In this document: positions 40,596-63,271 of the stretch, piece by piece
How the letters are laid out: each line of letters opens with the position of its first letter
Position numbering within the stretch: position 1 is the stretch's first letter
Notes under the pieces: generated by a model
Database searches by the model: none
Told to the model about the DNA's origin: nothing
The model's input: only the letters and a program-made list of their open reading frames with translations
Made by a program: the position numbers and the translations under genes
Assembly: GCA_019347575.1 (NCBI GenBank)
Contig: JAHWKY010000027.1
Span: 1-64,000 of the forward strand
DNA from: Actinomycetota bacterium
GTDB taxonomy: Bacteria; Actinomycetota; Nitriliruptoria; Nitriliruptorales; Nitriliruptoraceae
Length of the DNA: 64,000 nucleotides
Reading direction: 5' to 3'

Positions 40596-40720
40596 GGGGC
40601 TCCGGAGCGACGGGGTCACCTCCCAGGCTACGAGGTCGCCGCCAGGCCCCGCCGACCGAGCGTCCCGCCTAGGTGCGCCGTGGTCCCCGTGCGCCCATCC
40701 TCGGCCCGCGGCCGGTCGTA

Positions 40721-40770
40721 ACTTCATCCCCCAGATCGCTCGCATATCCGAGCGGATCGGGGGACGAAGT
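40721..40770. repeat. Dispersed 50-bp palindromic repeat, copy B
   Basis: The near-perfect palindrome starts ACTTCATCCCCCAGATCGCT, ends GGATCGGGGGACGAAGT and is centred on ATAT. Together with about 45 further bases on its right it is shared with copy D (63069). It lies 125 bases upstream of the DUF255 gene start. On the minus strand the 130-base shared block reads as an open frame beginning MGEEAESL in both copies, probably a coincidence of palindrome structure. Confidence 0.9.
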
Positions 40771-40908
40771 TGAGCGACGCTCCGTGGAAGCGACTCGGCC
40801 TCCTCACCCACGCAGAGGGTGTAGTCCGCTACGTGCTCATGCGACCTCTAGCCGACCGGCCCGATAGCCACGGTTCTCTTGCTCGGATCCATCAGCAGGT
40901 CCAGTTCA

Positions 40909-48765: not shown

Positions 48766-49041
48766 ATGGTTCTCCTCGCAGTAGGAGCCGTGGGGGCCAC
48801 CGTGTGGTGGCTCGGACTGCTCGTGGTCCTCGCCGTGGTGCTCGCGATCGCCTACCTGGCGCACCAGGTCACCCGGAACGTCGCGGAGATCCGTCGGTAC
48901 TCCCAGGACATCCTCGAACACGGGGTCGGGCTGGCCGGTGAGCTCGACCCGGTGCCACTGCTCGGCCGCACGCGGGAGCTCGTCGTGACCGTCGCCGACG
49001 CCTTCCGTCAGCTCGTCCAACGTCTGGCACCCCGCATCTAG
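48766..49041 (+). CDS. Small single-pass membrane protein (hydrogenase locus, 1)
   Basis: A 91-residue protein: a long N-terminal hydrophobic segment (WWLGLLVVLAVVLAIAYLA) and a helical soluble part (VTRNVAEIRRYSQDILEHG). It resembles the proteins at 49524 and 49786 in order of features: TM, VAEI-type charged helix, short tail. It is first in a tight operon leading to the hydrogenase subunits. Function unknown; membrane tether is the inference. Confidence 0.75.
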   Translation: MVLLAVGAVGATVWWLGLLVVLAVVLAIAYLAHQVTRNVAEIRRYSQDILEHGVGLAGELDPVPLLGRTRELVVTVADAFRQLVQRLAPRI

Positions 49042-49048
49042 GAGCGCC

Positions 49049-49342
49049 ATGGTCAACGCCCTGTACGTTGCCTCGGTCGCGGTCGTCGCTGTGCTCGTAC
49101 TCGCACTCGCCGCGTACCTGCTGACCATCCTCTACCTGCTCCGGTCGACCCGCGACACGCTCGGCAAGGTCCTGTTCGGGGTGCGGGCGATCGCCCACCG
49201 GGCCGAGCCGATCGGACCCGTGCTAGCCGACGCCAACCGCGAGCTGGGCACGGTCCGCGATGCGTTCAACGACGCGTTCCCAGACGAACAACCGGCAGCG
49301 CCCGAGCGCCGGCCCTTCCTCAACCCCGAGCTGCGGCCATGA
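49049..49342 (+). CDS. Small single-pass membrane protein (hydrogenase locus, 2)
   Basis: A 97-residue protein with an N-terminal membrane segment (VASVAVVAVLVLALAAYLL) and the soluble motif KVLFGVRAIAHRAEPIGP. That motif recurs as KTAFGVRAIETQAGAIGP in the protein at 50067, so the two are paralogues. The ATG has GGAG upstream. Function unknown. Confidence 0.75.
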   Translation: MVNALYVASVAVVAVLVLALAAYLLTILYLLRSTRDTLGKVLFGVRAIAHRAEPIGPVLADANRELGTVRDAFNDAFPDEQPAAPERRPFLNPELRP

Positions 49343-49524
49343 GCCTCGAGCTGCGTTGCGCCGAGCTGGGCTTGGCCTGCTCGCACCGGATGTCGGGCGG
49401 GTCGGAGGAGGAGCTGACGGATGAGCTGCGCAGGCACGCCGCGGACCGGCACGACGTTCCCGAGCTCAACGACACGCTGATCGACTACGCGATCAGCCGC
49501 GCCCGTCGCGGATCGGAGACCTGA
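49339..49524 (+). CDS. DUF1059-type small protein
   Basis: A 61-residue soluble protein with CAELGLACSHRMSGGSEEELTDELRRHA, fitting DUF1059: two cysteines about eight residues apart, an acidic helix, then His residues. Overlaps both neighbours (ATGA; one base). DUF1059 has no established function; the Cys pair could bind metal. Its presence inside the operon is unusual. Confidence 0.75.
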   Translation: MSLELRCAELGLACSHRMSGGSEEELTDELRRHAADRHDVPELNDTLIDYAISRARRGSET

Positions 49525-49775
49525 TGGAGGTCGATACCACCACCTGGATCGTCGGCTTCGCGATCGGCGGCGCCGTGGTCGTCATCGTGGTCGCCGTGGT
49601 CTTGGCGATCACCTTCTACGCGACCCGGATACGCGATCAGGTCGCCGAGATCGTCAGCGCCCTCCAGCATGCGGAGACGAACACGGCTCCCCTCTGGAAC
49701 GTGATGGAGGTCGGATACCGGACGAAAGAGCTGCGCCGGGGTGCCGAAGAGGTACGTCGCCGCCTGGGTGGATGA
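49524..49775 (+). CDS. Small single-pass membrane protein (hydrogenase locus, 3)
   Basis: An 83-residue protein with one membrane segment (IGGAVVVIVVAVVLAITFYA) followed by RIRDQVAEIVSALQHAE and a basic tail ELRRGAEEVRRRLGG. It shares the TM-plus-VAEI layout with the first protein of the operon. The ATG overlaps the DUF1059 stop by one base. Confidence 0.72.
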   Translation: MEVDTTTWIVGFAIGGAVVVIVVAVVLAITFYATRIRDQVAEIVSALQHAETNTAPLWNVMEVGYRTKELRRGAEEVRRRLGG

Positions 49776-49785
49776 GGAGAAGATG

Positions 49786-50064
49786 ATGCTGGCGACGGCG
49801 GTGACCGGCGCGTTGCTGGGGTGGTGGTGGGCGGCGTTGGCCGCCGGCCTCGTCGTGGCGTTGGTGGTGATCGTGCTGCTGCACCGACTGCTGACGCGGG
49901 TCCACGAGATCGAGGACGGCGCCCGCCTGGTCTGGTCCACGGGCAAGGCAGTCGCGCGCAACACCGCGACCACCTGGATGTTCGACGACACCGCCGACGC
50001 CCTCGAGGACCTGCGCGACGAGGCGCTGCGACACGGGGAGCTGCTGCGCGGAGAGGGGAGCTGA
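49786..50064 (+). CDS. Small single-pass membrane protein (hydrogenase locus, 4)
   Basis: A 92-residue protein: membrane segment (WWAALAAGLVVALVVIVLL), then LLTRVHEIEDGARLVWSTGKAVARNTATTW and an acidic helix DDTADALEDLRDEAL. I chose the ATG at 49786, 6 bases after AGGAG; an ATG three bases earlier or an upstream GTG overlapping the previous gene are alternatives. Confidence 0.68.
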   Translation: MLATAVTGALLGWWWAALAAGLVVALVVIVLLHRLLTRVHEIEDGARLVWSTGKAVARNTATTWMFDDTADALEDLRDEALRHGELLRGEGS

Positions 50065-50338: not shown

Positions 50339-51736
50339 ATGCCGACGCAGACACCGCAGCGCACCCCCGCGGAGCAGCTGCTGGAGGTGCTCGGCCCCGT
50401 CGAGCGCTACACGGGGGAGCGCGACGATCTCGGTGACTTCGGGTCGCCGGGCCGGCAGAGCATGGCCGCCGCCCTCGCTCCGGTCGCGGGGGAGGTTCCG
50501 GCGACCTCCCTGGGGCCCCTCACGAAGGTGCACGCGTTCTGGTTCGCCGGGATGTCCTGTGACGGCTGCACCGTGTCGGTGACCGGGGCCACCACACCGT
50601 CGGTCGAGAGCCTCCTGCTCGGTTCGCACCCCGGGTTGCCTCAGGTGGTACTGCACCATCCGGTCGTCGACACCGAGTCCGGTCCCGCGTACATGCGTCC
50701 CCACGAGGCGGCGGTCAAGGGCGAACTCGATGAGCCCTACGTGATCATCCTGGAGGGCTCGGCCACCGACGAGACCCGCGCCATCAACGGCGGGGGATAC
50801 TGGGTCGCGCAGGGCGAGGAGCCGTGGGGCCCGGACGGTGAGGAGCGCTCCGTCACCACCGAGGAGTGGCTCGCCCGACTCGCACCAGGCGCCGCCGCGG
50901 CCATCGCGATCGGCACCTGTGCCACGTGGGGCGGGATCCCGTCGGCCGACGGCAACCCCACGGGGGCGATGAGCCTCATGGACTTCCTCGGCAAGGACTA
51001 CCGCAGCGCCTTCGGCCTGCCGGTCGTGAACGTCCCGGGCTGCGCCCCGGTCGGGGACAACTTCACCGAGACCGTGGCCGCGATCCTCTACTTCCTGCAG
51101 GGCTTCGGCCCACTACCGGAGTTCGACGAGTTGGGACGTCCGGCCTGGCTGTTCGGGGAGACGGTCCACCGCCACTGCGTCCGGGGGGCGTACTACGAGG
51201 AGGGTTCGTTCGCCGAGGAGTTCGGCGATCCGAACTGCCTGGTCGAGATCGGCTGCTGGGGCCCGGTGGTCAACTGCAACATCACCTCCCGAGGCGCGAT
51301 CCGCCACGTCGGCGGGTGCATGAACTCCGGCGGGGCATGCATCGGCTGCACGATGCCGGGCTTCCCCGACAAGTTCACGCCGTTCTACAAGACACCACCG
51401 GGGTCGGCGGTGTCGACGAGCGCCTCCCGTCTCCTCGGCAGCCTGATCCGTCCGCTGAGGATGACGACCAACGAGCACCTCAACCGCGAGGTGCGCTGGG
51501 ACCTGCACCGCGAGACGCCGAGCGGCTGGGCGAAGCACAAGTCCGAGCCCGGCCTGCTGTCGCGTATCGAGCATCGCCTGTACGACGCGCTGCGCCGCTC
51601 CAACGACCGTGGCAAGAACGACGGCGATGCCTGGGGCAAGCGCAGCGAGTGGACGGACAAGCGCGACCCGGAGGACGAGACCAGCGACGTCGACCAGCGC
51701 GACAACGTGCTCGAGTCGACCGAAGGAGATCGCTAG
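50339..51736 (+). CDS. [NiFe] hydrogenase small subunit
   Basis: A 465-residue small subunit that carries electrons from the active site through Fe-S clusters. The proximal cluster region is AGMSCDGCTVSVTGATTPSVE, with later Cys in IGTCATWGG and NVPGCAPVGDN. The medial/distal cluster region includes FGETVHRHCVRGAYYE, NCLVEIGCWGPVVNCNI and GGCMNSGGACIGCTMPGFPD. No twin-arginine or other signal peptide is seen, so the enzyme probably faces the cytoplasm. Sequence style fits the actinobacterial high-affinity group 1h/1l-like oxidising enzymes, subgroup uncertain. The C-terminal 90 residues are charged and probably disordered. Confidence 0.93.
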   Translation: MPTQTPQRTPAEQLLEVLGPVERYTGERDDLGDFGSPGRQSMAAALAPVAGEVPATSLGPLTKVHAFWFAGMSCDGCTVSVTGATTPSVESLLLGSHPGLPQVVLHHPVVDTESGPAYMRPHEAAVKGELDEPYVIILEGSATDETRAINGGGYWVAQGEEPWGPDGEERSVTTEEWLARLAPGAAAAIAIGTCATWGGIPSADGNPTGAMSLMDFLGKDYRSAFGLPVVNVPGCAPVGDNFTETVAAILYFLQGFGPLPEFDELGRPAWLFGETVHRHCVRGAYYEEGSFAEEFGDPNCLVEIGCWGPVVNCNITSRGAIRHVGGCMNSGGACIGCTMPGFPDKFTPFYKTPPGSAVSTSASRLLGSLIRPLRMTTNEHLNREVRWDLHRETPSGWAKHKSEPGLLSRIEHRLYDALRRSNDRGKNDGDAWGKRSEWTDKRDPEDETSDVDQRDNVLESTEGDR

Positions 51737-53638
51737 ATGTGCTTCCGCAACCTGCCCGTCGACTTCGACGAGGCCGGCAACGCCCGGCTGCGGGGCGGCA
51801 TCCCCGACCCGTACGCCGTCTCGGTCAGCAGACCGGACATCGCCGAGACCGATGCCGACCGTGAGGAGCGCATCCAGAGGTTGATGGCCCGTCAAGGGCA
51901 CATCAAGGATCTCAACATGGATCCGGTCACCCGTGTGGCCGGCGCCCTGGCCGTGAACGTGACGGCCGATCTCGATTCCGGCCAGTACCTGGATGCTCGC
52001 TCGCAGGCGACGCTGTTCCGCGGCTACGAGGTGATCCTCATGGACCGCGATCCCCGCGACGCCATCTTCGTGTCATCACGAGCCTGTGGCGTCTGCGGCG
52101 GGGTGCACTCGCATGCTGCGGCGTACGCCATCGAGATGGCGATGGGCCTGAAGCCGCCGCCGCTCGGCACGGTCATCCGCAACCTCGGTGAGGCTGCCGA
52201 GATGGGGTACGACAACCCCCTGCACCTGTACCTGCTGGCCGGCCCCGACTACTCCGAGTCCATCATCAGGCAGTCGAACCCCGAGCTGTGGCCCAAGGCC
52301 GAGAAGTGGTCGTGCCCGAGCCAGGACATCCACCGGTTCAAGAAGATGTCGGACCTCATGACGGCGCTCAACCCCCTCACGGGCGCCCTCTACCGCGAAG
52401 GCCTCGAGTTCACCCGGGTGGCCCGCGAGCAGTTCTCGATCCTCCACGGCAAGTACCCCCACCCCCAGACCATCGTCCCGGGCGGTGTCTCCACCACGTT
52501 CACCCTGCAGACCCTCAACGAGTACCACTCGCGACTGGCGCAGACCTTCGACTACGCCCAGCGCATGCTGGCCATCTGGGACGACCTCACCGAGTTCTTC
52601 TACGAGGCCGACGACCGCTACGGCGATGTGGGGACCCGCCCGTACGACTTCATCGATCCCGGGTACTGGGACGACCCGTACGCGTACGACGCCACCTACG
52701 AGAACTGCACCGAGTGGGGGCTGCGCCGGCCCTCGACCCCCGGGGTGGTGATCGATGGCGAGCTCATGACCACGCGGCTCACCGACATCAACATGGGCTG
52801 GGAGGAGTTCGTCGAGCACTCCTACTACGAGGAGTGGGCCGGGGACCGCTACCAGACCGACCACCTCGGCAACCCCATCAGCCCCTACCACCCCTGGAAC
52901 AAGCGCACGCTGCCCAAGCCGAGCGAGAAGAGCTGGAAGGACAAGTACACCTGGGCCTGCACGCCCCGCTGGGACCGCACGTCGGTCGAGGCGGGCGCCT
53001 ACGTCCGGCTGCTGACCACGGCCATGGCCCAGGAGCACCCGCCGAACGACTTCTACGAGGCCACGGGGCACTCCCTGCGGATGGAGGTGCCGAAGGGAGA
53101 GCTCGGTACGAGGGAGTACGAGTGGCACGTGCCCGAGAAGTGGAACGCGTTCGAGCGCAACCGCGGCCGTGCCTACCACTACCTGTTCGCCCAGCTCATC
53201 GGCATGACCAACGTCCTCACGGCTTACGACCTGCTGCGCAACGGCGAGACCCAGGTCGCGGCCGTGCCGCCCGACGAGCTCGACAAGCACATCCCGAAGG
53301 AGGAGGTCCGCAGCGTCGGCTGGTGGGGCGCCGGGCGGGGATGGCTGACCCACCACCTCGTGATGGAGCAGGGCAAGATCGCCAACTACCAGATCTGCAC
53401 GCCGTCGACCATCAACGCCTCGCCGCGCGACCCCTGGGACCAGCCAGGGCCGTACGAGCAGGCCGTGATGAACACGCCGATCATCGAGGACGTCTCCGAC
53501 CCGTCGAGGTTCACCGGGATCGACATGCTCCGCACCATCCGCAGCTTCGACCCGTGCATGCCGTGCACCACCCACGTCTACACCGGCAACGGCGTCATCA
53601 CCCGCGAGGTCAACACCTGCGCGTGCGGTGACGACTGA
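51737..53638 (+). CDS. [NiFe] hydrogenase large subunit
   Basis: A 633-residue subunit with the NiFe centre. The N-terminal ligand pair is in SRACGVCGGVHS, and the C-terminal pair in DPCMPCTTH; both Ni ligands of each motif are Cys, so no selenocysteine is used here. A 20-residue extension after the last His (VYTGNG...ACGDD) is expected to be clipped by a maturation protease. The ATG follows AAGGAG at the end of the small-subunit gene. Residues 300-470 carry the long insert typical of the 1h-type lineages. H2 oxidation is inferred. Confidence 0.94.
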   Translation: MCFRNLPVDFDEAGNARLRGGIPDPYAVSVSRPDIAETDADREERIQRLMARQGHIKDLNMDPVTRVAGALAVNVTADLDSGQYLDARSQATLFRGYEVILMDRDPRDAIFVSSRACGVCGGVHSHAAAYAIEMAMGLKPPPLGTVIRNLGEAAEMGYDNPLHLYLLAGPDYSESIIRQSNPELWPKAEKWSCPSQDIHRFKKMSDLMTALNPLTGALYREGLEFTRVAREQFSILHGKYPHPQTIVPGGVSTTFTLQTLNEYHSRLAQTFDYAQRMLAIWDDLTEFFYEADDRYGDVGTRPYDFIDPGYWDDPYAYDATYENCTEWGLRRPSTPGVVIDGELMTTRLTDINMGWEEFVEHSYYEEWAGDRYQTDHLGNPISPYHPWNKRTLPKPSEKSWKDKYTWACTPRWDRTSVEAGAYVRLLTTAMAQEHPPNDFYEATGHSLRMEVPKGELGTREYEWHVPEKWNAFERNRGRAYHYLFAQLIGMTNVLTAYDLLRNGETQVAAVPPDELDKHIPKEEVRSVGWWGAGRGWLTHHLVMEQGKIANYQICTPSTINASPRDPWDQPGPYEQAVMNTPIIEDVSDPSRFTGIDMLRTIRSFDPCMPCTTHVYTGNGVITREVNTCACGDD

Positions 53639-54413
53639 GACCGGTCAGCCCGTGGTCACGCTCGTCGGGGGTGTCGGCGAGCTCTACCAGGGCGACCTGG
53701 ACCTGGGCCGGCGGGTCGCGGAGCTGCTCACCGAGGAGGATCTCGGGCATGGCGTCGCGGTGGAGGACCTGCACTACGGCGCGGTGGCCGTCGCCCAGTA
53801 CCTCCAGGACCTCGCTCCCGACACCCTGATCCTGATCGGCGCGGTCGCCCGAGGCCGCCCCCCGGCGACGCTCGAGCGCCGACGCATCGCCGCGGTCACC
53901 CTCGCGGGCGCAGATCTGCAGCTGGCGGTCGGGGACGCGGTGACCGGCTACGTGGCCATCGACCTCGTGATCGAGGTCGGAGCGGGGCTCGGGGCCTTAC
54001 CGGATCGCGTGGTCACCATCGAGGTCGAGCCCGTCACCACCGGCCCTGGGGACGCCCTCTCACCGGAGGTCGGCGCAATGGTCCCACAGGTGCTCGACCT
54101 GGTGCGCACGGAGGTGGAGCGTGCTCCGGTGTTCGGTCTGGCGGCGCGCCTCGTCGAGCAGGTCGGCGACGGACATCTGGAGCCGTCGCCGAGCACCGAG
54201 TCGCTCGCGGTGCTGCTGGGGGCGCTGAGCAGGACGGAGCGAAGCGGCCACTGGGGCCGCACCTTCTCCCACCGCGACGAGCTCGAGCACCGGCTCGGCC
54301 GGGGCGAGACGTCGCCTGGCATGGATCATCTCGACTGGGGGCTCGTGTGGTCCCTCATCGAGGAGCTGGACCGGCTCGAGGGCGCGGAGGCACGACGCAT
54401 CGCCGGCACGTGA
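53628..54413 (+). CDS. Degenerate hydrogenase maturation-protease homologue
   Basis: A 261-residue protein whose first 150 residues resemble the HybD fold (VVTLVGGVGELYQGDLDLGRRVAELL; then LILIGAVARGRPPATL). The Ni-binding acid of the first motif is displaced (GDLDLG instead of TDEAIG-type), and the central Asp (normally in a V-D-A motif) is replaced by Gly (LIGAV), so proteolysis seems unlikely. The C-terminal 100 residues are helical and unrecognised. The GTG start overlaps the large-subunit stop by 11 bases. It may be a chaperone of the large subunit (inference). Stops 3 bases before the convergent BPL-like gene. Confidence 0.7.
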   Translation: MTTETGQPVVTLVGGVGELYQGDLDLGRRVAELLTEEDLGHGVAVEDLHYGAVAVAQYLQDLAPDTLILIGAVARGRPPATLERRRIAAVTLAGADLQLAVGDAVTGYVAIDLVIEVGAGLGALPDRVVTIEVEPVTTGPGDALSPEVGAMVPQVLDLVRTEVERAPVFGLAARLVEQVGDGHLEPSPSTESLAVLLGALSRTERSGHWGRTFSHRDELEHRLGRGETSPGMDHLDWGLVWSLIEELDRLEGAEARRIAGT

Positions 54414-54416
54414 TGC

Positions 54417-55130
54417 TCAGTCGTCCTCCGCCTCCAGCTCACCGAGGTGCTGAGGCCGGACGGCGATGCGGCCGCCTGCGGCGGTGGCGATGACCAGTGC
54501 TCCGTCGTCCTTCAGATCCGCAGCCGTGCCTTCCACCCTCGGACCGCCCGGTCCCATCGGGATCATCAGCGCCCGGACCTGGGCGCCGAGCGTCGCGCAG
54601 CACGACCGGAGCTGATCCAGCACCGGGCCGGGCTCCCGTGACAGCGCCCGATCCAGCGCCTCCGCAGCGTCAGCGATCACGGCCGCTCGGGGCTCGCCCG
54701 GTGCCCGGATCAGGACCGTGGCCACTGCCCAGTCGACCCGTGCGGGACCGAGCTCTGCGTGGATGCCGACGTGTGCGACGGGCCGGTCGTCGCGCGCCAG
54801 CAGATCGGGCCAGTACCACTGCGCCCCGACCCCGACGATCTCCACCAGCGCGACCGCGGCCGCCGCGTAGAGCCAGCCCTCGCGCTCCGGCGACAGCCCG
54901 GGGCGCAGGATCTGCGAGAAGGTCGCGTCCTCCGGCGCCACCTCCCAGGGCCGTCCGGCCCGCCCCCGTGGGGCCGCCTCGTACCCGGCCACGACGACGG
55001 CCCCCGCCGGCCCCTCTCGCCGGGCCCACGACTGCGCCTCTGCGGCGGTCGACAGGAGGGCTGGGAAGAAGCGGAAGGGCCGGTGTCCGAGGGCCTCAGC
55101 CACCGCGTCGTCACGTAGCGGCGCGATCAT
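54417..55130 (-). CDS. Biotin-protein-ligase-like protein lacking the catalytic lysine
   Basis: A 237-residue protein that looks like a biotin-ligase fold: GYEAAPRGRAGRPWEV matches the BirA ATP/biotin loop (GRGRRGR-W type), QWYWPDLLARDDRPVAHVGIHAELG occupies the KWPNDLL...K segment, and the C-terminus resembles the BPL C-terminal domain (GTAADLKDDGALVIAT). The conserved lysine after WPNDLL is not found (DDRPV), so normal biotinylation is doubtful. Position in the hydrogenase locus suggests an accessory binding role. The ATG overlaps the TPR stop. Confidence 0.62.
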   Translation of the reverse strand: MIAPLRDDAVAEALGHRPFRFFPALLSTAAEAQSWARREGPAGAVVVAGYEAAPRGRAGRPWEVAPEDATFSQILRPGLSPEREGWLYAAAAVALVEIVGVGAQWYWPDLLARDDRPVAHVGIHAELGPARVDWAVATVLIRAPGEPRAAVIADAAEALDRALSREPGPVLDQLRSCCATLGAQVRALMIPMGPGGPRVEGTAADLKDDGALVIATAAGGRIAVRPQHLGELEAEDD

Positions 55131-56347
55131 CCCCAGCCCGAGTCGGGGCCGGCGTGGGTCTCGAAGACGGACTTCAGGCGCATCCACTGCGGGACGTGGA
55201 AGCGGATCATGGCCCGCGAGAACCGACTGCGGAGGGCCTCAGCGGTGTCGTGCGGGAGGGTCGCCGCCGCGGCCACCGTGTCGGCGACCAGCGTGTCGAG
55301 CCGGTCCGGTGGCAGCTCCAGCGCGCAGTCGATGAACGCCTCGGCCAGCGCGATCCCCCGCTCGCCAGCGTCGGCGATCCCTCTGGTCACGGCGGCGAGC
55401 TCCGCCAGGCGCTCGGCTGCCTGGAGGTCCAGCCAGCGTGCCATCTCGGACCGGAGCAGGGCGGTCCAGACCTCCCGTGGCTCGTCCGCCAGTACCACCA
55501 GCACATCGCCGGTGGGGCTCCCAAGGCGCTCGAGGACCGCCGCCGCCTGATCGTGGACGGGCTCGTCGGCTGCCGGCACGACACGGGCCTGCGCGGCGGC
55601 CAGGCGAGCCCGAACCGGCTGCCCGGCGGCCTCGTACGCGAGCGCGAGGTTCGCCAGCGCCATCGCGTGCGGTCCGGGACGGAGCGCACGCGGATGGGCC
55701 GCAACGGCGCGCAGCAGGACGTCCACCGCACGCTCGGCGTCGTCGAGAGCAAGGTGGGCCAGGCCGAGGAGGTTGGCCGCGGCACCGAGGGCCGAGGTGT
55801 CGCCCGCGCGCTCGGCCAGCTCCAGCGCGGACCGGAGGTGTCCGATCGCATCCTCAGGCTCGTCCATCGTGAGCAGGCAGGCGCCGAGCTCGCGGGCGGC
55901 CGCCGCAGCTTCCGCTCGAGCACCCGCTGCGTCGAACAGGTTCAGGGCGTCCAGGAACGCCTCGCGCGCCCCGGGAAGATCCCCAGCATCGCGTCTGGCG
56001 AGCCCGAGGTTGTGGGTTGCCGCTCCCTGCTCGGGGCCCGCCGCCGCGCGCTCGAACGCGGCAGCCGCCCGCGCCAGCACCTCGACGGCGAGCCCCGCCC
56101 GACGGGTCTCGCGCAGCAACGCGCCGAGCGCGTTGAGTGCGACCCCGTGCTCACGTGGCAGCTCCGCCGGAGGGAACCCGGCAGCAGCGGCCGCCAGTGC
56201 GGCCTCGGCGTCGTCGTACCGGCCGACCTGGAAGAAGGCGGAACCGAGATGGAACTGCGCGGTCGCGTGCTGGACGGGGTACCGCTCCGCCGAGTACCTG
56301 CGCACGCTGGACTCGAGCTGACGGATGGTCTCAGCGACGTCGTCCAC
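55127..56347 (-). CDS. TPR-repeat protein
   Basis: A 406-residue protein made of about eight tetratricopeptide-type helical pairs in the first 260 residues, such as QFHLGSAFFQVGRYDDAEAALAAAA and NLGLARRDAGDLPGAREAFLDAL. The C-terminal 130 residues are a different, mostly helical domain. TPR domains mediate protein-protein binding. It is the first gene of a two-gene minus-strand unit with the BPL-like protein, divergent from the HybD-type protease by 17 bases. GTG start. Confidence 0.82.
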   Translation of the reverse strand: MDDVAETIRQLESSVRRYSAERYPVQHATAQFHLGSAFFQVGRYDDAEAALAAAAAGFPPAELPREHGVALNALGALLRETRRAGLAVEVLARAAAAFERAAAGPEQGAATHNLGLARRDAGDLPGAREAFLDALNLFDAAGARAEAAAAARELGACLLTMDEPEDAIGHLRSALELAERAGDTSALGAAANLLGLAHLALDDAERAVDVLLRAVAAHPRALRPGPHAMALANLALAYEAAGQPVRARLAAAQARVVPAADEPVHDQAAAVLERLGSPTGDVLVVLADEPREVWTALLRSEMARWLDLQAAERLAELAAVTRGIADAGERGIALAEAFIDCALELPPDRLDTLVADTVAAAATLPHDTAEALRSRFSRAMIRFHVPQWMRLKSVFETHAGPDSGWG

Positions 56348-56364: not shown

Positions 56365-56895
56365 GTGCACGTCATGGTGGCCGGGTTCGGCAACGTCCTG
56401 CGGGGGGACGACGGGTTCGGCGTCGCCGTCGCCGAGCTGCTGTCGCGTGCCCCGGTGCCACCCGAGGTGACCGTGACCGAGGTGGGGATCGGGGGCATCC
56501 ACCTCGTGCAGGATCTCCTGGCCGGGCAGGTCGAGCTGCTGATCGTCGTGGATGCGGTCGAGGTGGGTCGTGCTCCCGGCACGGTCGTGATCCTCGAGCC
56601 ACCCATCGACGACGTGCTCGGCATGAGCGTGAACGAGCGCCGCGATGCCCTCGCCGACATGCACTACGCCACGCCGGACCGGGCACTGCTGCTGGCGACC
56701 GCCCTGGAGGTCCGTCCGGCATCGGTCGTGATCGTCGGATGCCAGCCGGTCGACGCCGACACCTGGGAGCAGGGCCTCAGCGGCCCGGTAGCAGCGGCCG
56801 TGCCGGCGGCGGCGGCGGAGATCCGCCGCCTCGTCGCCCAGGCGGGCGTGGCATGGCCCGAACCCACAGGAAGATCAGCCGGGGACGATGGGTAG
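56365..56895 (+). CDS. Hydrogenase maturation protease (HybD family)
   Basis: A 176-residue protease that cleaves the C-terminal extension of the large subunit once Ni is bound. The family motifs are intact: MVAGFGNVLRGDDGFGVAVAELL with the Ni-binding acid in GDDGFG, the central Asp in IVVDAVEVG, and the His in DMHYATPDRA. The GTG at 56365 sits only 1 base from AGGAG, so an ATG three codons on (56374) may be used. The 3' end overlaps the NifU-like gene by 21 bases on the opposite strand. Confidence 0.88.
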   Translation: MHVMVAGFGNVLRGDDGFGVAVAELLSRAPVPPEVTVTEVGIGGIHLVQDLLAGQVELLIVVDAVEVGRAPGTVVILEPPIDDVLGMSVNERRDALADMHYATPDRALLLATALEVRPASVVIVGCQPVDADTWEQGLSGPVAAAVPAAAAEIRRLVAQAGVAWPEPTGRSAGDDG

Positions 56896-57411
56896 TGATC
56901 GCCGCTCCTGCGGGGCGTCGAGCAGCGTCGGCCCGGGCGGCGGATGGGCCTCTGCGTCGTCCTCCTCGACCTCGAGGCCCCGGAACCCGGGGAGGTGGTC
57001 GCGCAGGACCTCCTCGACGCCGTGCCGCAGGGTGATGTCGGAGGCCGTGCAGCCCGCGCAGTTCCCGGTCAGGCGCACCCGCACCCTCCCGGACCGGACC
57101 TCGAGCACCTCGACCTCACCGCCGTGACTGTGCACGTAGGGCCGGATCTCCCCGAGCGCCTCCTCGGCGAGTGCCGGATCGTCGATGGCTCCGTAGGTCG
57201 ACAGCAGCCAGCGTGCTGCGGGGTCCTGGTCCGCCGCTGCGTCCATCCGCTCGCGTCCCACCTCTTCGGTGAGGCGCTGGACGGCGTGCCGGTGCAGCCC
57301 TTCGAGACCGTCGAGGAGCTCGAGCATGTCGCGGGCGACCTCCGGCCCACGCGCCTCCAGTCGCTCGATCACCTCCTGGAGGTGGTCGAGCAGATCCTCG
57401 AGGGTGGTCAC
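56875..57411 (-). CDS. NifU-like C-terminal-domain protein
   Basis: A 178-residue protein. Residues 1-70 form a helical region rich in Leu, Glu and His (DHLQEVIERLEA). Residues 85-160 contain the NifU C-terminal scaffold with the CxxC in GNCAGCTASDITLRHGVEEVL. Such domains carry or transfer [4Fe-4S] clusters. Placed in the hydrogenase locus it is probably for cluster insertion into the small subunit. The GTG overlaps the PadR stop (GTGA). Confidence 0.85.
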   Translation of the reverse strand: MTTLEDLLDHLQEVIERLEARGPEVARDMLELLDGLEGLHRHAVQRLTEEVGRERMDAAADQDPAARWLLSTYGAIDDPALAEEALGEIRPYVHSHGGEVEVLEVRSGRVRVRLTGNCAGCTASDITLRHGVEEVLRDHLPGFRGLEVEEDDAEAHPPPGPTLLDAPQERRSLPIVPG

Positions 57412-57800
57412 GTCCGCGACGCCCGGGGGGACCCCTCCGGGAGTGCCGGCGCAAGGGCCCGATAGCGTGCGAGGAACACCCCGACGAGCCGTCGGCTCTC
57501 GGCGAGCGCGCCCCCCCAGGCGTGGAGCCACTCCACACCGTCTGGGGTGATCTCGTAGCTGCGCCGCGGCGGGCCAGCCTCCGAGGTCTCCCAGGACGAC
57601 TCCACGAGACCGTCCTGCTCCATGCCCCGGAGCAGCCGGTACAGGCCACCCGGATCGGTCGACCCCAGACCCAGCTCGGCGAGCTGCGCGAGCAGCTCGT
57701 ACCCGTGGTTCGGCGACTCGGCCAGCAGCAACAGCGCGCACGGGCGGAGGAAGTTGCGGGGCAGGCCTCCGCCAGCGATCTCTTCGGGATCCGCGATCAT
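57408..57800 (-). CDS. PadR-family transcriptional regulator
   Basis: A 130-residue regulator. The winged-helix reads FLRPCALLLLAESPNHGYELLAQLAELGLGSTDPGGLYRLLRGMEQDGLVESSW, the PadR signature, followed by RRSYEITPDGVEWL and a helical dimerisation C-terminus. Overlaps the Cys-rich protein upstream (one base, TGATG). It may control the hydrogenase locus (inference). Confidence 0.88.
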   Translation of the reverse strand: MIADPEEIAGGGLPRNFLRPCALLLLAESPNHGYELLAQLAELGLGSTDPGGLYRLLRGMEQDGLVESSWETSEAGPPRRSYEITPDGVEWLHAWGGALAESRRLVGVFLARYRALAPALPEGSPRASRT

Positions 57801-58192
57801 CACCGTCGGGTCCCCCCGAGCCGCTCCTCGATGCACGCGTCGGCCTCCTCCGGCGAGCTCTGGCACCAGCAGTCGGCGCCGCACTCACCGTGCCCGGGGC
57901 GTGTGAGCTCAGCGAACTCCTCCGCGAAGATCCGCGCCCCGTCGTCGTGGCCTCGCTGGGAGAGCCGGATGATGCCCTGGTCCGACCACTCGAGGAAGCC
58001 ATCCTCGACCAGCACCTCGAGGTACGGCTCGATCACCTTCGCGTCGACACCGAGGAACCGCTCGAGGACACTGGCGTCGGCCTCGTCACCGAAGCCCTCG
58101 CCCTGCATCCAGAACAGCACCTGGAGGATCTCGTCGCGCCAGTACAGCCGGCGCAGCGACTCGGATTTGGGCTGGGCGACATGGTCGGTCAC
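57800..58192 (-). CDS. Winged-helix-like protein with Cys cluster
   Basis: A 130-residue protein. The first 90 residues look like a helix-turn-helix or winged helix (WRDEILQVLFWMQGEGFGDEADASVLERFLGV, then VEDGFLEWSDQGIIRLSQRG). The tail reads GHGECGADCWCQSSPEEADAC: four cysteines and a His in about 20 residues, a plausible metal or Fe-S site. No family is recognised. The GTG start overlaps the CooC-like stop. It could be a metal-responsive partner of the assembly genes. Confidence 0.75.
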   Translation of the reverse strand: MTDHVAQPKSESLRRLYWRDEILQVLFWMQGEGFGDEADASVLERFLGVDAKVIEPYLEVLVEDGFLEWSDQGIIRLSQRGHDDGARIFAEEFAELTRPGHGECGADCWCQSSPEEADACIEERLGGTRR

Positions 58193-58950
58193 GGGCTGCC
58201 CCCGAGTCGGCGAGCGAGCTGTCTGATGGCGGCGACCCCCGCGCCCTGTGGCGCGTGGTCGATCGGCGCGACGCCCAGGCGCTCGGCATCCTGGAAGGCG
58301 TCGTCCTGCGGGACGATCCCGGCCAGCTCGAAGCCGTGCCGGTCGCAGTACTCGCGGATGAGCTCCGTGTCCCCCTCGCGGGCCCGGTTCCCGACCACGG
58401 CCAGACGATCGAGGCCGAGCCCGGAAGCGAGTTCGTGGAACCGTCGCGCCGTCTCCAGGGACTTGAAGTACGGCTCGGCGACGATGAGCATGGTGTCGAC
58501 GTACGCGTTCGTGGCGCGGCTGAGGTGCTCGGGCGAGGCCTCGAGGTCGACGACGACGGTCCGGTCAGCGGCGAGTTCGGTGAGGACCCCACGCACGGTG
58601 GAGTGGGCGCCGCACAGTCAGCCGCCGCCGGCGCTGCGGGGCGGGCCCATCGCGAGCAGCTGGATCCCCGATGCGGTGTCGACCGCGAACTCGCCGATGA
58701 CGTCGTCGATCGGTCGGGTGAGGACGGCTGTGCGTGTCCCGTCCACGTCCCGATGCTCGAGCAGCCCGTGGGGCAGCGCGCGGACGTGGTCGTACTGCTC
58801 GGGCGGCATGCCGAGCGTCAGGATAAGGTTCGGGTTCGGGTCCGCGTCGACGGCCAGCACACGGTGGCCCTCGTCCGCGAGCGACCGCGCGAGGGTGCCC
58901 GAGATGGTGGTCTTGCCCGAGCCACCCTTGCCGGCCACGGCGATACGCAT
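58189..58950 (-). CDS. CooC-like nickel-insertion ATPase with in-frame TGA (candidate selenoprotein)
   Basis: A 253-residue ATPase if the TGA is read through. The N-terminal P-loop is VAGKGGSGKTT (deviant Walker A of the SIMIBI class), with VLAVDADPNPNL next, and LLAMGPPRSAGGG at residues 98-110. The in-frame TGA (58618-58620) is codon 111, then LCGAHSTVRGVL continues in frame, with DLEASPEHLSRA and EPYFKSLETA downstream, exactly as in CooC. In CooC the aligned segment reads GSGCVCPEHALVRTLL, so the TGA replaces the first Cys of the CxC metal/dimer motif. The frame stays open for 142 further codons, and GTGA coupling to the next gene is kept. Selenocysteine is the best explanation; a nonsense mutation is the alternative. 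Start ATG at 58950 (GGAGGG upstream). Confidence 0.8.
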
Positions 58951-59038: not shown

Positions 59039-59971
59039 TCAGGTCACCCCGCCCGCTTCCCCACTGGCGAGCGTGTCCGCGGCATCCCCGACGGCATCCC
59101 CGACGAGGTTGATGCCGAGGATCGTGAGCACCAGCGCGGCTCCGGGGAACACCGTGAGCCACCACGCGGTGCGGAGGAACCTCTGGGCGTTGTTCGCCAG
59201 GTAGCCGAGGCTGACCACGTCGGGGTCGGTGAGTCCGACGAACCCGAGGCCGGCCTCGATGAGGATGGCGCTGGAGGCGGCGACCGACAGCATCACCAGG
59301 GTCGTCCCGAGGATGTTCGGCCAGATGTGGCGTGCCAGGACGTGGGCGGGGGATGCGCCGAGGGCCTGGGCCGCGTCGACGAACTCGCGGCGGCGCAGCG
59401 ACAGCGTCTCGGCCCGGACCACGCGCGCCGTCCACGTCCACGAGGTGAAGCCGAGGACGAGGATCAGGTTCACCAGGCCCGGTCCGAAGAGTGCGACGAC
59501 GACCACGGCGAGGAAGAAGCGCGGGACGATCTGGACGATCTCGGTGAACCGCATCGCGATATCGTCGAGTGCGCCGCCGTACCACCCCGCCAGCCCGCCC
59601 GTGATGACGCCGATCAGCCCAGCGAGGACGACCACGCCTGCGGCCACGAGCAGCGATGTCCGCAGGCCGTGCAGAACGAGGGCCACCACGTCCCGGCCGA
59701 GGTCGTCGGTGCCGAAGCGATGGGCGGTGGAGGGAGGTGCGAGCGGGGCGCCGGCCGACGTCAGCGGGTCGGCACTGACGACGAGCGGGGCGACGAGGGC
59801 GGCGAGCAGCATCGATCCGAGCAGCAGCGCCCCGAGTCGCCCGCCCGGCGATCCGAGCGCCGCTCCGACGTACCGCGCCCCCGCGAGACGCCTGGCGGCC
59901 CGGGTCGGGGGAGGCTCGGGAGCCGATCGTCGGGGCCCCCGCGGACGGGTGGCGACGAGCCGCTCACTCAT
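59039..59971 (-). CDS. Peptide/nickel-type ABC transporter permease (DppC/NikC)
   Basis: A 310-residue permease with about six membrane segments and the EAA-type motif in FVDAAQALGASPAHVLARHIWPNI. TM1 is preceded by an Arg/Pro-rich cytoplasmic N-terminus; the TDDLGRDV segment is the standard DppC signature. It overlaps the DppB-type gene by 8 bases. Confidence 0.92.
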   Translation of the reverse strand: MSERLVATRPRGPRRSAPEPPPTRAARRLAGARYVGAALGSPGGRLGALLLGSMLLAALVAPLVVSADPLTSAGAPLAPPSTAHRFGTDDLGRDVVALVLHGLRTSLLVAAGVVVLAGLIGVITGGLAGWYGGALDDIAMRFTEIVQIVPRFFLAVVVVALFGPGLVNLILVLGFTSWTWTARVVRAETLSLRRREFVDAAQALGASPAHVLARHIWPNILGTTLVMLSVAASSAILIEAGLGFVGLTDPDVVSLGYLANNAQRFLRTAWWLTVFPGAALVLTILGINLVGDAVGDAADTLASGEAGGVT

Positions 59972-60926
59972 AGCGCACCCGTGGATCGAGGACCGCGTAC
60001 AGGATGTCGACCACCAGGTTGACCACCAGGACGGCCGCCGCGACCACGAGGAAGATGGCCAGCAGCACCGGGAGGTCCCGGGTCTGGGCCGAGCTGAGAA
60101 GAAGGCGGCCGACACCCGGCCAGCCGAAGACGATCTCTACCAAGGCGGCCCCGGCGAAGAACATGCCGACGCGGTTGCCGATGACGGTGATCAACGGGAG
60201 GATGGCGTTGCGGAAGCCGTGCCAGACTACGCGCCGTTCCGGGAGTCCCTTGGCCCGCGCCGTCCGGATGAAGTCGGCCCTGCTGACCTGGACCATGCCG
60301 GATCGGACGAGCCGTACGTTGAGGGCGATCTCCGTCGTCGCCAGGACCAACGCCGGGAGGGCCAGGTGATGGAGCACGTCGATGACGACGAGCAGGCCCG
60401 TGGACTGCGAGCGGGCATCCGTCATCCCCTGGACGGGGAACCATCCTGTGCGGTACGCCAGCAGGAGCACGGCGAGCTGAGCCAACAAGAACGACGGTGT
60501 GGCGTAGGCGGTCAACGAGACGGCGCGGATCGCGAGGTCCCTGCGGCCGCGCGGGTACCGCGATGTGACGATCCCGAGCGTGGTGCCCACGAGCGTGGAC
60601 GCGGAGAGCGCGGCGCTGGCGAGGAGCAGCGTCGCGGGGAGCCGTTCGAGCACCACGGCGAGGGCGGGCCGTCCCCGGATGTAGGACAGACCCAGGTCTC
60701 CCTGGACCACGTTGCCGAGGTAGGTCGCGAGCTGCTGCGGGAGCGGCTGGTCGAGGCCGAACCGCTCACGGGTCGCGGCGTAGTAGGCCTCGTCTCCGTA
60801 CTGGCCTGCCAAGGCCACGAGCGGGTCCCCCGGCGCGAGGTGCAGGAGGAGCCAGGTCCCGACCAGGATGACCAGCGCCGTCGGTGGCACCTGCGCCAAC
60901 CGACGGAGCAGGTATCCCGTGCTCAC
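59964..60926 (-). CDS. Peptide/nickel-type ABC transporter permease (DppB/NikB)
   Basis: A 320-residue permease: six membrane segments, N-terminal LLRRLAQVPPTALVILVGTWLLLHLAPGDP, the DppB-typical start, and EAA motif in FIRTARAKGLPERRVVWHGFRNAILPL. The GTG start has GGGAGGA upstream. Forms the channel with the DppC-type gene. Confidence 0.92.
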   Translation of the reverse strand: MSTGYLLRRLAQVPPTALVILVGTWLLLHLAPGDPLVALAGQYGDEAYYAATRERFGLDQPLPQQLATYLGNVVQGDLGLSYIRGRPALAVVLERLPATLLLASAALSASTLVGTTLGIVTSRYPRGRRDLAIRAVSLTAYATPSFLLAQLAVLLLAYRTGWFPVQGMTDARSQSTGLLVVIDVLHHLALPALVLATTEIALNVRLVRSGMVQVSRADFIRTARAKGLPERRVVWHGFRNAILPLITVIGNRVGMFFAGAALVEIVFGWPGVGRLLLSSAQTRDLPVLLAIFLVVAAAVLVVNLVVDILYAVLDPRVRYE

Positions 60927-60944
60927 GGGGTCCTCCCTCGTCGA

Positions 60945-62588
60945 TCAGGCCTCGCAGCTGACCTCCTCCGCGAACAGCCCCGTGTGCGGCTTGAAGCCGC
61001 TGCACCGGGTGTTCCAGGCGCGCGTCCCGACGGTCTCGACGATCCAGACGTAGGGGAGGTCGTCGACGACGATCCGCTGGAGTTCCGCGTAGATCGGCGA
61101 GCGGGCTTCGCGGTCGACCGTCCGTGAGGCCTCGTCGAACAAGCGGTCGACGTCGGGGTTGGAGTAGTGAGAGGCGTTCGTGAAGGGGACGTCCCCGATC
61201 TGGGCCGAGTCGTACATCCGCCGCACACCGACCTCGGGGTCGGGGCCGTTGCAGTACGAGATGATGTTCGTGTCGAAGTTGTCCTCGGCGAACACGGTGG
61301 GCGCGAACACCGGAGGCTCCATGGCCTCGAGGTTCACACGGATGCCCACCGCTCCGAGCTGTTCACGGACGAGCTCGCCGTACTTCGCGAAGGTCGGGAA
61401 GTGTGCGAAGCCGATCGCGAGCTGCTCGCCGTCCTTCGTCCGGACACCGTCGTCGCCCTCGACCCAGCCGGCTTCCTCGAGCAGCCGCTCCGCCTCGCCG
61501 GGGTCGTAAGCGGGGAGTTCGACCTCATCGGCGTGAGCCCACGGGATCCCGCTCGAGATCGGCGCCTCGGCGACCTGGCCCTGGCCGAAGAGCACCTGAT
61601 CGACGAACCGTTGCCGGTCGAGCGCGTGGGCGACCGCCCGCCGGACCTCCAGCGTTCCTGGGATAGGCCGGTCGAGGTTGAAGCTCACGGTCATGATGCA
61701 GTTGGCACCGCCGGGGTTCGAGCTCGTGGCGGCGAGCTCGATATCGGGGTTGTCCCGGAGCCACGACAGGTCCGGCCCGGGGACGCCCCACAGGAAGTCG
61801 ACCTCGCCGTTCTCGAGCGCGAGGACCTGTGTCGCCTGGTCGGGGATGATCCGCATCACGAGCTCGTCCACCGACGGGCCATCCTTGAAGTAGTCACGGT
61901 TCACCGTCGCGCGGATCTCGGCACCTTCTTCGTAGGACGCGAAGACGAACGGACCGGTCCCGACCGGCGCCAGGTTGGCGGGGTTCGACTCGATGTCACT
62001 GCCCGCGTAGACGTGCTCAGGCACGATGGGCGCCTCGGTGACGTTGAGCTGCTGGAGGAGCGGTGCGTACGGATCAGCGAACTGGAAGACGACCGTGTGG
62101 TCGTCGGGCGCTTCGATCGACTCGATCGAGGAGCCCATGGACGCCTTCGTCCTGGCGTGGAACTCCAAGAGCACCTCTTCGAACGAGAAGACGACGTCCT
62201 GGGCGGTGAAGGGCTCCCCGTCGTGCCAGACGACGTCGTCACGGAGCGCGAACGTGTAGGTCCGTCCGTCGTCGCTCACCTGCCAGGACTCCGCCAGTTC
62301 CGGCTCTGGGTCACCGTTCTCGTCGAGCGCCACTAGGCCGTTGAAGAACGTCTCGCTGGCGGCGTGGACCGCACCGCTGGTGGTGATCGCCGGGTTGAGG
62401 CTGCCGGGATCCGAGTCGAGAGTCACCACCAGACTCCCGCCCTGCGCTACGGGTGTCCCGGTGGGCGTCTCGGTGTCGATCGGTGCCGTCTGTGCGTCCG
62501 TCGGCTCCTCCCGGCTCGCGCTGTCGGTGCCACATGCGCTCGCGAGGATCGCGATCGCGACCAGTGCGGCCTTCCCGGTCTTCTTCAA
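60945..62588 (-). CDS. Substrate-binding lipoprotein (SBP family 5)
   Basis: A 547-residue lipoprotein with lipobox LASACGT. The fold is SBP_bac_5: LVVTLDSDPGSLNPAI, SWQVSDDGRTYTFALRDDVVWHDGEPFTAQDVVFSFE, AVAHALDRQRFVDQV. It precedes the two permeases by 18 bases. Family members bind peptides, nickel chelates or other solutes; the hydrogenase context favours nickel. The TTG start at 62588 (MKKTGKAALVAIAILASACG) gives a normal signal peptide. No transporter ATPase gene is present beside it. Confidence 0.9.
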   Translation of the reverse strand: MKKTGKAALVAIAILASACGTDSASREEPTDAQTAPIDTETPTGTPVAQGGSLVVTLDSDPGSLNPAITTSGAVHAASETFFNGLVALDENGDPEPELAESWQVSDDGRTYTFALRDDVVWHDGEPFTAQDVVFSFEEVLLEFHARTKASMGSSIESIEAPDDHTVVFQFADPYAPLLQQLNVTEAPIVPEHVYAGSDIESNPANLAPVGTGPFVFASYEEGAEIRATVNRDYFKDGPSVDELVMRIIPDQATQVLALENGEVDFLWGVPGPDLSWLRDNPDIELAATSSNPGGANCIMTVSFNLDRPIPGTLEVRRAVAHALDRQRFVDQVLFGQGQVAEAPISSGIPWAHADEVELPAYDPGEAERLLEEAGWVEGDDGVRTKDGEQLAIGFAHFPTFAKYGELVREQLGAVGIRVNLEAMEPPVFAPTVFAEDNFDTNIISYCNGPDPEVGVRRMYDSAQIGDVPFTNASHYSNPDVDRLFDEASRTVDREARSPIYAELQRIVVDDLPYVWIVETVGTRAWNTRCSGFKPHTGLFAEEVSCEA

Positions 62589-62743: not shown

Positions 62744-63016
62744 ATGTGTCTCGGCATCCCAGGGCAGGTCATCGACTTTCTCGACGGAACCGACCAGCTC
62801 GCCAAGGTCGAGGTGACGGGCGTGACCCGCAACATCAACGTCGGCCTGGTCCGCGAGGACGGTCTGAAGGTCGGCGACTGGGTCCTCATCCACGTGGGCT
62901 TCGCCATGTCGATCATCGACGAGGCGGAGGCCACGGATGCTCTCGAGGGGCTGAGGATGCTCGGCGAGGCGTTCGACACCGAGGTCGAGGACATCGCCCG
63001 ATCGAGGATCGACTGA
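62744..63016 (+). CDS. hypC: Hydrogenase maturation protein HypC
   Basis: A 90-residue protein beginning MCLGIPGQVIDF, the invariant HypC N-terminus whose Met-removed Cys carries the Fe(CN)2CO unit. The C-terminus has VGDWVLIHVGFAMSIIDEAEA. HypC moves the iron centre from HypD to the large subunit. The ATG has GGGAGG 7 bases upstream. It stands alone, divergent from the binding-protein gene, so it is transcribed separately from hypABDEF, which lie elsewhere. Confidence 0.95.
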   Translation: MCLGIPGQVIDFLDGTDQLAKVEVTGVTRNINVGLVREDGLKVGDWVLIHVGFAMSIIDEAEATDALEGLRMLGEAFDTEVEDIARSRID

Positions 63017-63068
63017 TGGTCGGTGGCAGCTGCCGCAATGAACGAACCGGCCGACCCACGAGGTCGTA

Positions 63069-63118
63069 GCTTCATCCCCCAGATCGCTCGGATATCCGAC
63101 CGGATCGGGGGACGACGT
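63069..63118. repeat. Dispersed 50-bp palindromic repeat, copy D
   Basis: Arms CTTCATCCCCCAGATCGCTC and GGATCGGGGGACGACGTT around GGATATCC. The right flank (TTGAGCGACGCTCCG...AAGCGACTCGGCCTCCTCACCCAC region, 63119-63160) is shared with copy B. It lies between hypC and the GNAT gene. No DUF255 fragment is seen beside it. Confidence 0.9.
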
Positions 63119-63271
63119 TGAGCGACGCTCCGCGAAAGCGACTCGGCCTCCTCACCCACGCCGACGTGTCTCCGCTACGTGCCAGTCCGCCCCCATCGCC
63201 GACCGCGCGAGAACCCCGGTGATGTCGGGACACCGGGTTCCTACAAGCACCCGGGGAACTAGCATCGAGGG

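Follow-up and report, generated by a model that had tools for sequence, protein, structure and literature searches.

A CooC-like ATPase gene in a [NiFe]-hydrogenase locus of an Actinomycetota bacterium very probably encodes, as judged from sequence comparison, a full-length selenoprotein, that is, a CooC-type ATPase with selenocysteine (Sec) at codon 111. The gene lies in the window, by which is meant the whole 64,000-nucleotide stretch of DNA that was analysed (Table 1). It is likely, given its neighbours and relatives, that this ATPase delivers nickel to the neighbouring hydrogenase. In the mechanism proposed here, SelB and tRNA-Sec would insert Sec at the UGA, guided by a short hairpin just downstream, and Sec, a softer metal ligand than Cys, would take the place of the first of the two metal-binding cysteines in the C-x-C of an ATPase with a MinD/NifH fold. 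The ATPase would probably form a dimer in which the U-x-C motifs hold a metal ion between them, and ATP would drive nickel delivery to the precursor of the adjacent actinobacterial-type [NiFe]-hydrogenase large subunit, with the CooC-type ATPase standing in for the HypA/HypB pair. We infer that the gene is translated in the cell, that the protein contains Sec, that its metal is nickel and its client the hydrogenase, and that selenium brings a benefit.

Table 1. Features of the hydrogenase locus and of the selenium genes (positions are those of the window unless a locus is named)
Feature	Position	Strand	Remarks
[NiFe]-hydrogenase small subunit	50339..51736	(+)	
[NiFe]-hydrogenase large subunit	51737..53638	(+)	nearest solved structure HofG (5AA5)
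Second, divergent hydrogenase-protease-like protein	53628..54413	(+)	TIGR00072, 43.3 bits (cut-off 47.45)
Protein with weak biotin-ligase-like similarity	54417..55187	(-)	below cut-off
TPR protein	55127..56347	(-)	
Hydrogenase maturation protease (HycI/HupD type)	56365..56895	(+)	
NifU-like domain protein	56875..57330	(-)	start approximate; below cut-offs
PadR-type regulator	57408..57884	(-)	TIGR02719, E 3e-21, below cut-off
130-aa protein	57800..58192	(-)	no Pfam or NCBIfam match; GTG start overlaps CooC stop (GTGA)
CooC-like ATPase gene	58189..58950	(-)	253 residues, Sec (predicted) at codon 111; MRIAVAGKGGSGKTT...GGGULCGAHSTVRGVL...
In-frame TGA, codon 111, taken as Sec	58618..58620	(-)	same-codon TGA in G017/L060 and other homologues
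SECIS-like hairpin ACUCCAC-CGUGC-GUGGGGU	58586..58604	(-)	nt 17-35 from U of UGA; from comparison
Alternative hairpin CCCAC/GUGGG (earlier note)	58588..58607	(-)	overlaps 58586..58604; in 2 of 31 Sec-111 genes (window, G017)
ABC importer, peptide/nickel type	59039..62588	(-)	matches to nickel and peptide models, none over cut-off
ABC importer permeases	59039-60115, 59964-60926	(-)	
ABC importer family-5 binding protein	60945-62588	(-)	
HypC chaperone	62744..63016	(+)	TIGR00074, over cut-off
SelA-SelB pair and TGA formate dehydrogenase with GGUCU-loop hairpin	L185 3249-10224	(-)	own genome, contig 26

The reading frame runs on the minus strand from ATG 58950 to a stop TGA at 58191-58189, and its sole internal TGA is that at 58620-58618. 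The earlier note had described one frame broken only by the TGA at codon 111, with both halves CooC-like, and this is borne out by re-reading of the frame and by a profile that matches CooC1; residues 4-224 of the read-through protein match the CbiA/MinD/ParA family. The coupling to the next gene that had also been claimed, an overlap of the CooC stop and the following GTG start as GTGA, was likewise found intact. Elsewhere in the window TGA is an ordinary stop, terminating 23 of the 35 longer frames predicted by a simple caller, and thus the code is not reassigned. The window belongs to contig 27 of a 4.89 Mb genome (120 contigs, 98.8% complete) that contains this single CooC-like gene, two further matches being weak P-loop similarities. 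Under the standard code the TGA ends the frame, so that genes of this kind are prone to be annotated as "broken".

The nearest homologue found, from another genus of the same family (genome G017), encodes a protein 67% identical to that of the window and has TGA at the same codon; the G017 gene is also found in locus L060 (JAHWJY01, Actinomycetota 0712_bin1). The TGA is therefore not a unique mutation, a doubt that the earlier note had raised. A scan of one genome per species (84,980 species) yielded 109 relatives, and the best 80 loci of these hold 122 CooC-like matches. At alignment columns 111 and 113 the codons of these matches are TGA/TGC in 15, TGA/TGA in three, TGC/TGA in three and TGC or TGT at both columns in 91, with neither in 10 degenerate copies. 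A phylum-wide sample of 396 genomes, 112 of them with a match at E 1e-30, added 24 new loci, further TGA matches being present in that sample. From the 80 loci, the relatives of the window and the 24 added loci, 178 distinct genes that cover the two columns were obtained, exact duplicates, rows without one of the columns and matches weaker than E 1e-12 having been removed. L195-L197 are copies of L062, L064 and L066. Among these 178 genes an in-frame TGA occurs 51 times, 37 times at column 111 and 14 times at column 113, and none was found elsewhere in the matched stretches. The TGA codons are distributed over 44 genes (30 at 111 only, seven at 113 only and seven at both), 114 genes have Cys at both columns, and 20 are degenerate paralogues. 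According to record titles, the carriers of TGA belong to the Actinomycetota, Thermomicrobiales, Chloroflexi, Acidobacteria and Verrucomicrobia, and two cultured relatives, Pseudonocardia nigra DSM 104088 (L072) and P. kunmingensis DSM 45301 (L116), have it in the motif CPUC. The comparison establishes the UGA as a conserved site at which Cys alternates with what is predicted to be Sec. It agrees with the earlier proposal of Sec at the first C-x-C position beside a [NiFe]-hydrogenase and goes beyond it, in that Sec is predicted at the second position, or at the first and second together, in other lineages.

Two readings in which the TGA has no coding role can be weighed against this distribution. 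A pseudogene or a sequencing or assembly error would account for a TGA that splits the gene under the standard code, yet it is refuted by homologues that carry TGA at the same two columns, and nowhere else in their matched parts, in separate assemblies and in the two DSM strains; with the overlap to the next gene intact as well, its probability is negligible. Termination at the TGA followed by re-start would yield two proteins, and a GTG at 58596 is present as a possible start for a 135-aa C-terminal piece. Such a stop, however, would hit the metal motif in all 44 genes with TGA, the split would have to alternate with intact Cys genes, and the hairpin described below would be left without a purpose, all of which makes this arrangement extremely improbable.

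The relationship of Sec and Cys genes was followed on a tree, from a quick search, of 160 rows thinned from the 178 genes (40 Sec and 120 others, degenerate copies included). The Sec/non-Sec label switches at least nine times on this tree versus about 36 times with shuffled labels, at least five of the switches are forced by well-supported branches, and the Cys genes L205, L061 and L077/L121 branch from within the Sec genes. The window and G017 genes share a run of 12 identical codons (codons 110-121), equalled in 251 of 20,000 shuffles, which is supportive although not decisive.

The homologues can be divided into three paralogue groups, here given names of our own. Group A is the window type, with the motif GULCGAH and its kin. 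Group B comprises 13 genes with the motif CPUC, CLUC or UPUC, some paralogues thus having two predicted Sec residues (UPUC). A degenerate CooC copy adjoins the group B gene in 12 loci, all but L126, whose end is cut off; these adjoining paralogues, seen in L042, L044, L046, L049-L052, L055, L072, L075, L110 and L116, lack the CxC motif. The arrangement looks as if the group B Sec protein and the degenerate paralogue formed a heterodimer-like pair. A Cys-type group A gene shares the locus with group B in L055, L072, L075, L110, L116 and L126. Group C has the motif GUTG, that is, Sec without the second Cys (L053 5353-6120, L054 from 1738, and L056 from 5717 (-)), and no recognised hydrogenase-cluster neighbour of these genes was found in those three loci; the L053 gene has an acyl-CoA dehydrogenase and a periplasmic binding protein in its vicinity. 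One Chloroflexi gene (L088) has the motif GUTU.

A UGA that is to be read as Sec in bacteria would call for a hairpin close behind it. While the UGA occupies the ribosomal A site, about twelve nucleotides behind it are covered, and mainly nt 17-35 would stay free. The earlier note had drawn a hairpin of CCCAC/GTGGG after the TGA (nt 14-18 with 29-33, the T being nt 1). A hairpin does follow the TGA and this pairing is real, but the conserved hairpin is another one, nt 17-23 with 29-35 around the loop CGUGC, whereas the earlier pairing is confined to two of 31 genes. When 45 nt of the window are folded alone, the earlier pairing is assigned a probability of 0.96 and the comparison-backed hairpin one of 0.04, and the window stretch shows no excess of stability over shuffles (z 0.45, its stability being reached or exceeded by 124 of 200). 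The window alone thus proves nothing, and the evidence comes from comparison. In groups A and C nt 19-23 pair with 29-33 across a 5-nt loop, or the register is 17-21 with 29-33, and in group B nt 16-22 pair with 27-33 around AGUU, counted from the column-113 UGA. The fixed-register helix, which was defined on the same sequences on which it was scored, is complete in 19 of 20 A, C and GUTU-type Sec genes versus 0.42 expected from synonymous-codon shuffles, and in none of 98 Cys homologues (0.56 expected). The corresponding group B helix is found in 11 of 13 Sec genes (0.39 expected) and in none of six Cys genes (0.17 expected). Among 11 Sec genes found later, the predefined helix fits two (0.04 expected); the other nine, which form one clade, have a possible hairpin of GCGCAC-6 nt-GUGCGC in all nine (0.74 expected), recognised post hoc. 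The exact form of the hairpin therefore differs between clades.

Covariation was assessed on 17 aligned stretches picked for one shared register, with L083, L090, L132 and the nine-gene clade left out and L066 being identical to L064. In this set 19 cells are altered on both sides of the helix, where shuffles give 5.5 and slid controls 0-2, and 95% of cells pair versus 18-42% when slid. Four of the seven pairs are altered on both sides versus 2.6 in shuffles, a value equalled in 85 of 500, and further pair types number 6 versus 7.1 shuffled, so that shuffles do about as well on two of the five measures. A GU at loop nt 25-26 is common to all 31 Sec-111 genes, yet 90 of 109 Cys genes have it too; it is expected there because GU belongs to a Val codon, and it is not counted as evidence. 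Mean folding z-scores against synonymous shuffles are -1.19 for Sec genes labelled A (n=17, a set that wrongly takes in the B-type CLUC gene of L046) versus -0.37 for Cys genes (n=74), -1.85 for group B Sec (n=12) versus -1.14 for group B Cys (n=6), -1.06 for group C Sec (n=3), and -3.18 for one D Sec gene versus -0.73 for D Cys (n=24). Folding energy would thus part Sec from Cys genes only modestly, the fixed-register helix test doing so far better. Taken over the whole comparison, the predicted hairpin is established as being under selection as RNA. A match to the snoRNA sR53 in Rfam, obtained on 301 bases, had E 7 and was dismissed as chance level.

The presence of a Sec insertion machinery was examined in the genome as a whole, as the earlier note had suggested, and selA, selB and selC are all three present. 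SelB was detected at 55.7 bits in one search and is over the TIGR00475 cut-off in another, and it is adjoined by SelA (TIGR00474, 498.8 bits, over cut-off); the tRNA-Sec scores 76.8 bits, over the Rfam cut-off, and is given the anticodon TCA by ARAGORN. Beside SelB lies a formate dehydrogenase gene, over the NF041513 cut-off, with an in-frame TGA of its own (NQARIUHSS), followed by a 7-bp stem with the 5-nt loop GGUCU (nt 15-33), 2 nt nearer to the UGA than the CooC hairpin. The loop of E. coli fdhF is similar to GGUCU. The outcome was otherwise for selD, for which no match over cut-off was found in the 98.8%-complete, 120-contig assembly; three weak SelD matches proved on reading to be ThiL, HypE and PurM. 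The gap may be one of assembly or it may be real. Among 28 genomes searched the SelD model is over cut-off in 25, the exceptions being the window genome, G017 and G064.

The missing SelD is what favours another decoding, in which a UCA-anticodon tRNA charged otherwise would read the UGA as cysteine or another residue. Against it stand SelA and SelB adjoining a TGA formate dehydrogenase with the GGUCU loop, SelD matches in the 25 genomes, many of them with TGA inside the match, and a hairpin that accompanies TGA and not Cys codons; such decoding is quite improbable, and Sec remains the preferred reading of the codon. Of the 29 TGA-bearing genomes 23 have SelB, and three of the six others have tRNA-Sec; in the remaining three (G054, G063 and G065) neither SelB nor tRNA-Sec was found. 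The tRNA was detected in 12 of the 18 TGA-bearing genomes tested for it. SelB is equally common among genomes whose fetched locus is Cys-only (25 of 29), and its presence therefore does not discriminate Sec from Cys.

With regard to the protein, a profile of seven homologues searched against solved structures matches CooC1 best (3kje and sister entries; E 1.6e-38, profile positions 1-222), the next solved relative being archaeal MinD (E 2e-16). The earlier note had placed the TGA at the first Cys of the CooC CxC motif, and this is confirmed by the alignment, in which U111-x-C113 falls on C112-x-C114 of CooC1, the latter residue numbers being counted by hand. A predicted monomer model (mean pLDDT 88.3; below 50 in the motif loop, residues 107-112) has the MinD/NifH fold. 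In a fold comparison CooC1 ranks 46th (Z 22.2 over 244 residues, 28% identity) and the best entry has Z 23.7; the best 50 entries, at Z 22.0 to 23.7, share the fold of NifH, BchL and MinD, and with ranks so close CooC is not picked out by its fold only. The traits of the CooC type are present nonetheless, namely the deviant Walker A, the MinD/NifH-type fold and U-x-C for C-x-C. CooC1 of Carboxydothermus hydrogenoformans, the nickel ATPase of CO dehydrogenase (3kje, 3kjg, 3kjh, 3kji), is alike in fold, in the deviant Walker A (KGGxGKT) and in the place of the C-x-C, but differs in that the first Cys is predicted to be Sec in the window protein and that the window locus contains a hydrogenase.

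The CxC of CooC1 binds metal where the two subunits of the dimer meet, and dimer formation is triggered by nickel, ADP or ATP; the description given of CooC1 as well as of HypB is that of a dimeric, nickel-delivering NTPase with metal-chelating interface cysteines, two of them invariant in HypB (available part of PMC3792862). The HypB/HypA pair would thus have the same proposed job, although the CooC-type protein belongs to another NTPase family, and the read-through protein searched against NCBIfam has no HypB (TIGR00073) among its 21 families at E <=0.001. No HypA or HypB over cut-off was found in the window genome, which retains the [NiFe]-hydrogenase, HypC, HypD and HypE, so that another nickel-insertion factor is wanted; given that CooC1 and HypB are both described as nickel NTPases, the CooC-type ATPase would probably supply nickel instead. 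Among 47 carrier genomes searched, part of a set of 58 carriers and including many incomplete assemblies, HypB is over cut-off in six and HypA in 11. A HypA match in genome G095 (L219 565-888 (-)) contains an in-frame TGA (HAEG-TGA-RVERV), which by eye does not lie in a Cys-like context and probably arose by mutation or through an error of assembly.

A selenoprotein with a different task is also conceivable, handling another metal or serving the hydrogenase, in the manner of NifH, as a reductase or redox switch powered by ATP, with Sec in a redox role. The fold is common to NifH, BchL and MinD, and most uncharacterised selenoproteins are thought to be redox proteins (available part of PMC13188914). 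CooC1 is nevertheless far ahead by sequence, and a hydrogenase genome without HypA/HypB matches wants a nickel-insertion factor, which renders this task unlikely and leaves nickel delivery as the preferred one.

The context of the gene is that of a hydrogenase cluster. The large subunit matches HofG (5AA5) with E 2.4e-136, the next structure following at 3.4e-50; the HofG structure is that of the actinobacterial-type hydrogenase of Ralstonia eutropha. The L055 homologue of the NifU-like protein is over the Pfam NifU cut-off. In tblastn searches of the 80 named loci the numbers of loci with a match were 57 for the small subunit, 56 for the large subunit, 65 for the 130-aa protein, 42 for HypC and 34 for HypD, counts that are lowered by loci cut at contig ends. 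Groups A and B lie mostly within [NiFe]-hydrogenase loci. A hydrogenase subunit is present in nine of the 15 named Sec group A loci, and L060, L062, L063 and L064 have cluster accessory genes only; none of the searched genes was found in L083, and L090 has a SIS-domain gene only. For the 13 Sec group B loci the figures are a subunit in five, cluster genes only in seven, and neither in L050.

Two known links between selenium and metal handling bear comparison. CobW proteins are nucleotide-dependent and of the metallochaperone type. A CobW-related selenoprotein, NF041053, is listed with the Sec motif UxxC (PMC13188914, Table 1); the CooC-type protein differs from it in NTPase family and motif. 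The [NiFeSe]-hydrogenases likewise combine selenium and nickel in hydrogen metabolism, but there Sec is within the hydrogenase, whereas the window large subunit has DPCMPC, with plain Cys, near its end. The same 2026 review counts 119 prokaryotic selenoprotein families and subfamilies, and no CooC, MinD, ParA or NifH-type ATPase is named in its Table 1 (PMC13188914). No mention of CooC was found in the available parts of PMC12013277 and PMC9312934, and the available part of a 2025 review on [NiFe]-cofactor assembly names HypA/HypB for nickel insertion, with CooC absent (PMC12134894). A literature search, with most subscription papers and all bioRxiv preprints outside its scope, gave no report of a Sec-containing CooC among the matches listed, and six CooC-like proteins run against NCBIfam had no match over cut-off and met no model named CooC or selenoprotein. 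As far as the literature searched extends, this would be a new selenoprotein family within a known kind of ATPase.

A broader reading, to which we give an even chance, is that a selenium-using superfamily of nickel-insertion ATPases, with Sec first, second or both in the motif, replaced HypA/HypB for actinobacterial-type, probably high-affinity, [NiFe]-hydrogenases. If so, the metal of a UPUC dimer would be bound by as many as four selenolates, and we know of no other protein with a four-selenolate biological metal site. The selenoprotein proposed here would in itself add a selenoprotein family with several paralogue groups and double-Sec members, tie selenium to nickel metabolism, and suggest a maturation route for a widespread hydrogenase type where HypA and HypB are missing.

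Some minor observations may be added. Viral contigs gave 45 matches, nearly all to the P-loop part. Ahead of the hydrogenase small subunit, at window 48766-50064 (+), are four small proteins that are hydrophobic by eye; two of them (48766-49041 and 49741-50064) were scanned against Pfam without a family match, and similar small ORFs are also called in L055, L062 and L072. Finally, two minus-strand ORFs at window ~40700-40811 and 63050-63159 have nearly identical starts, and these places probably hold a DNA repeat.
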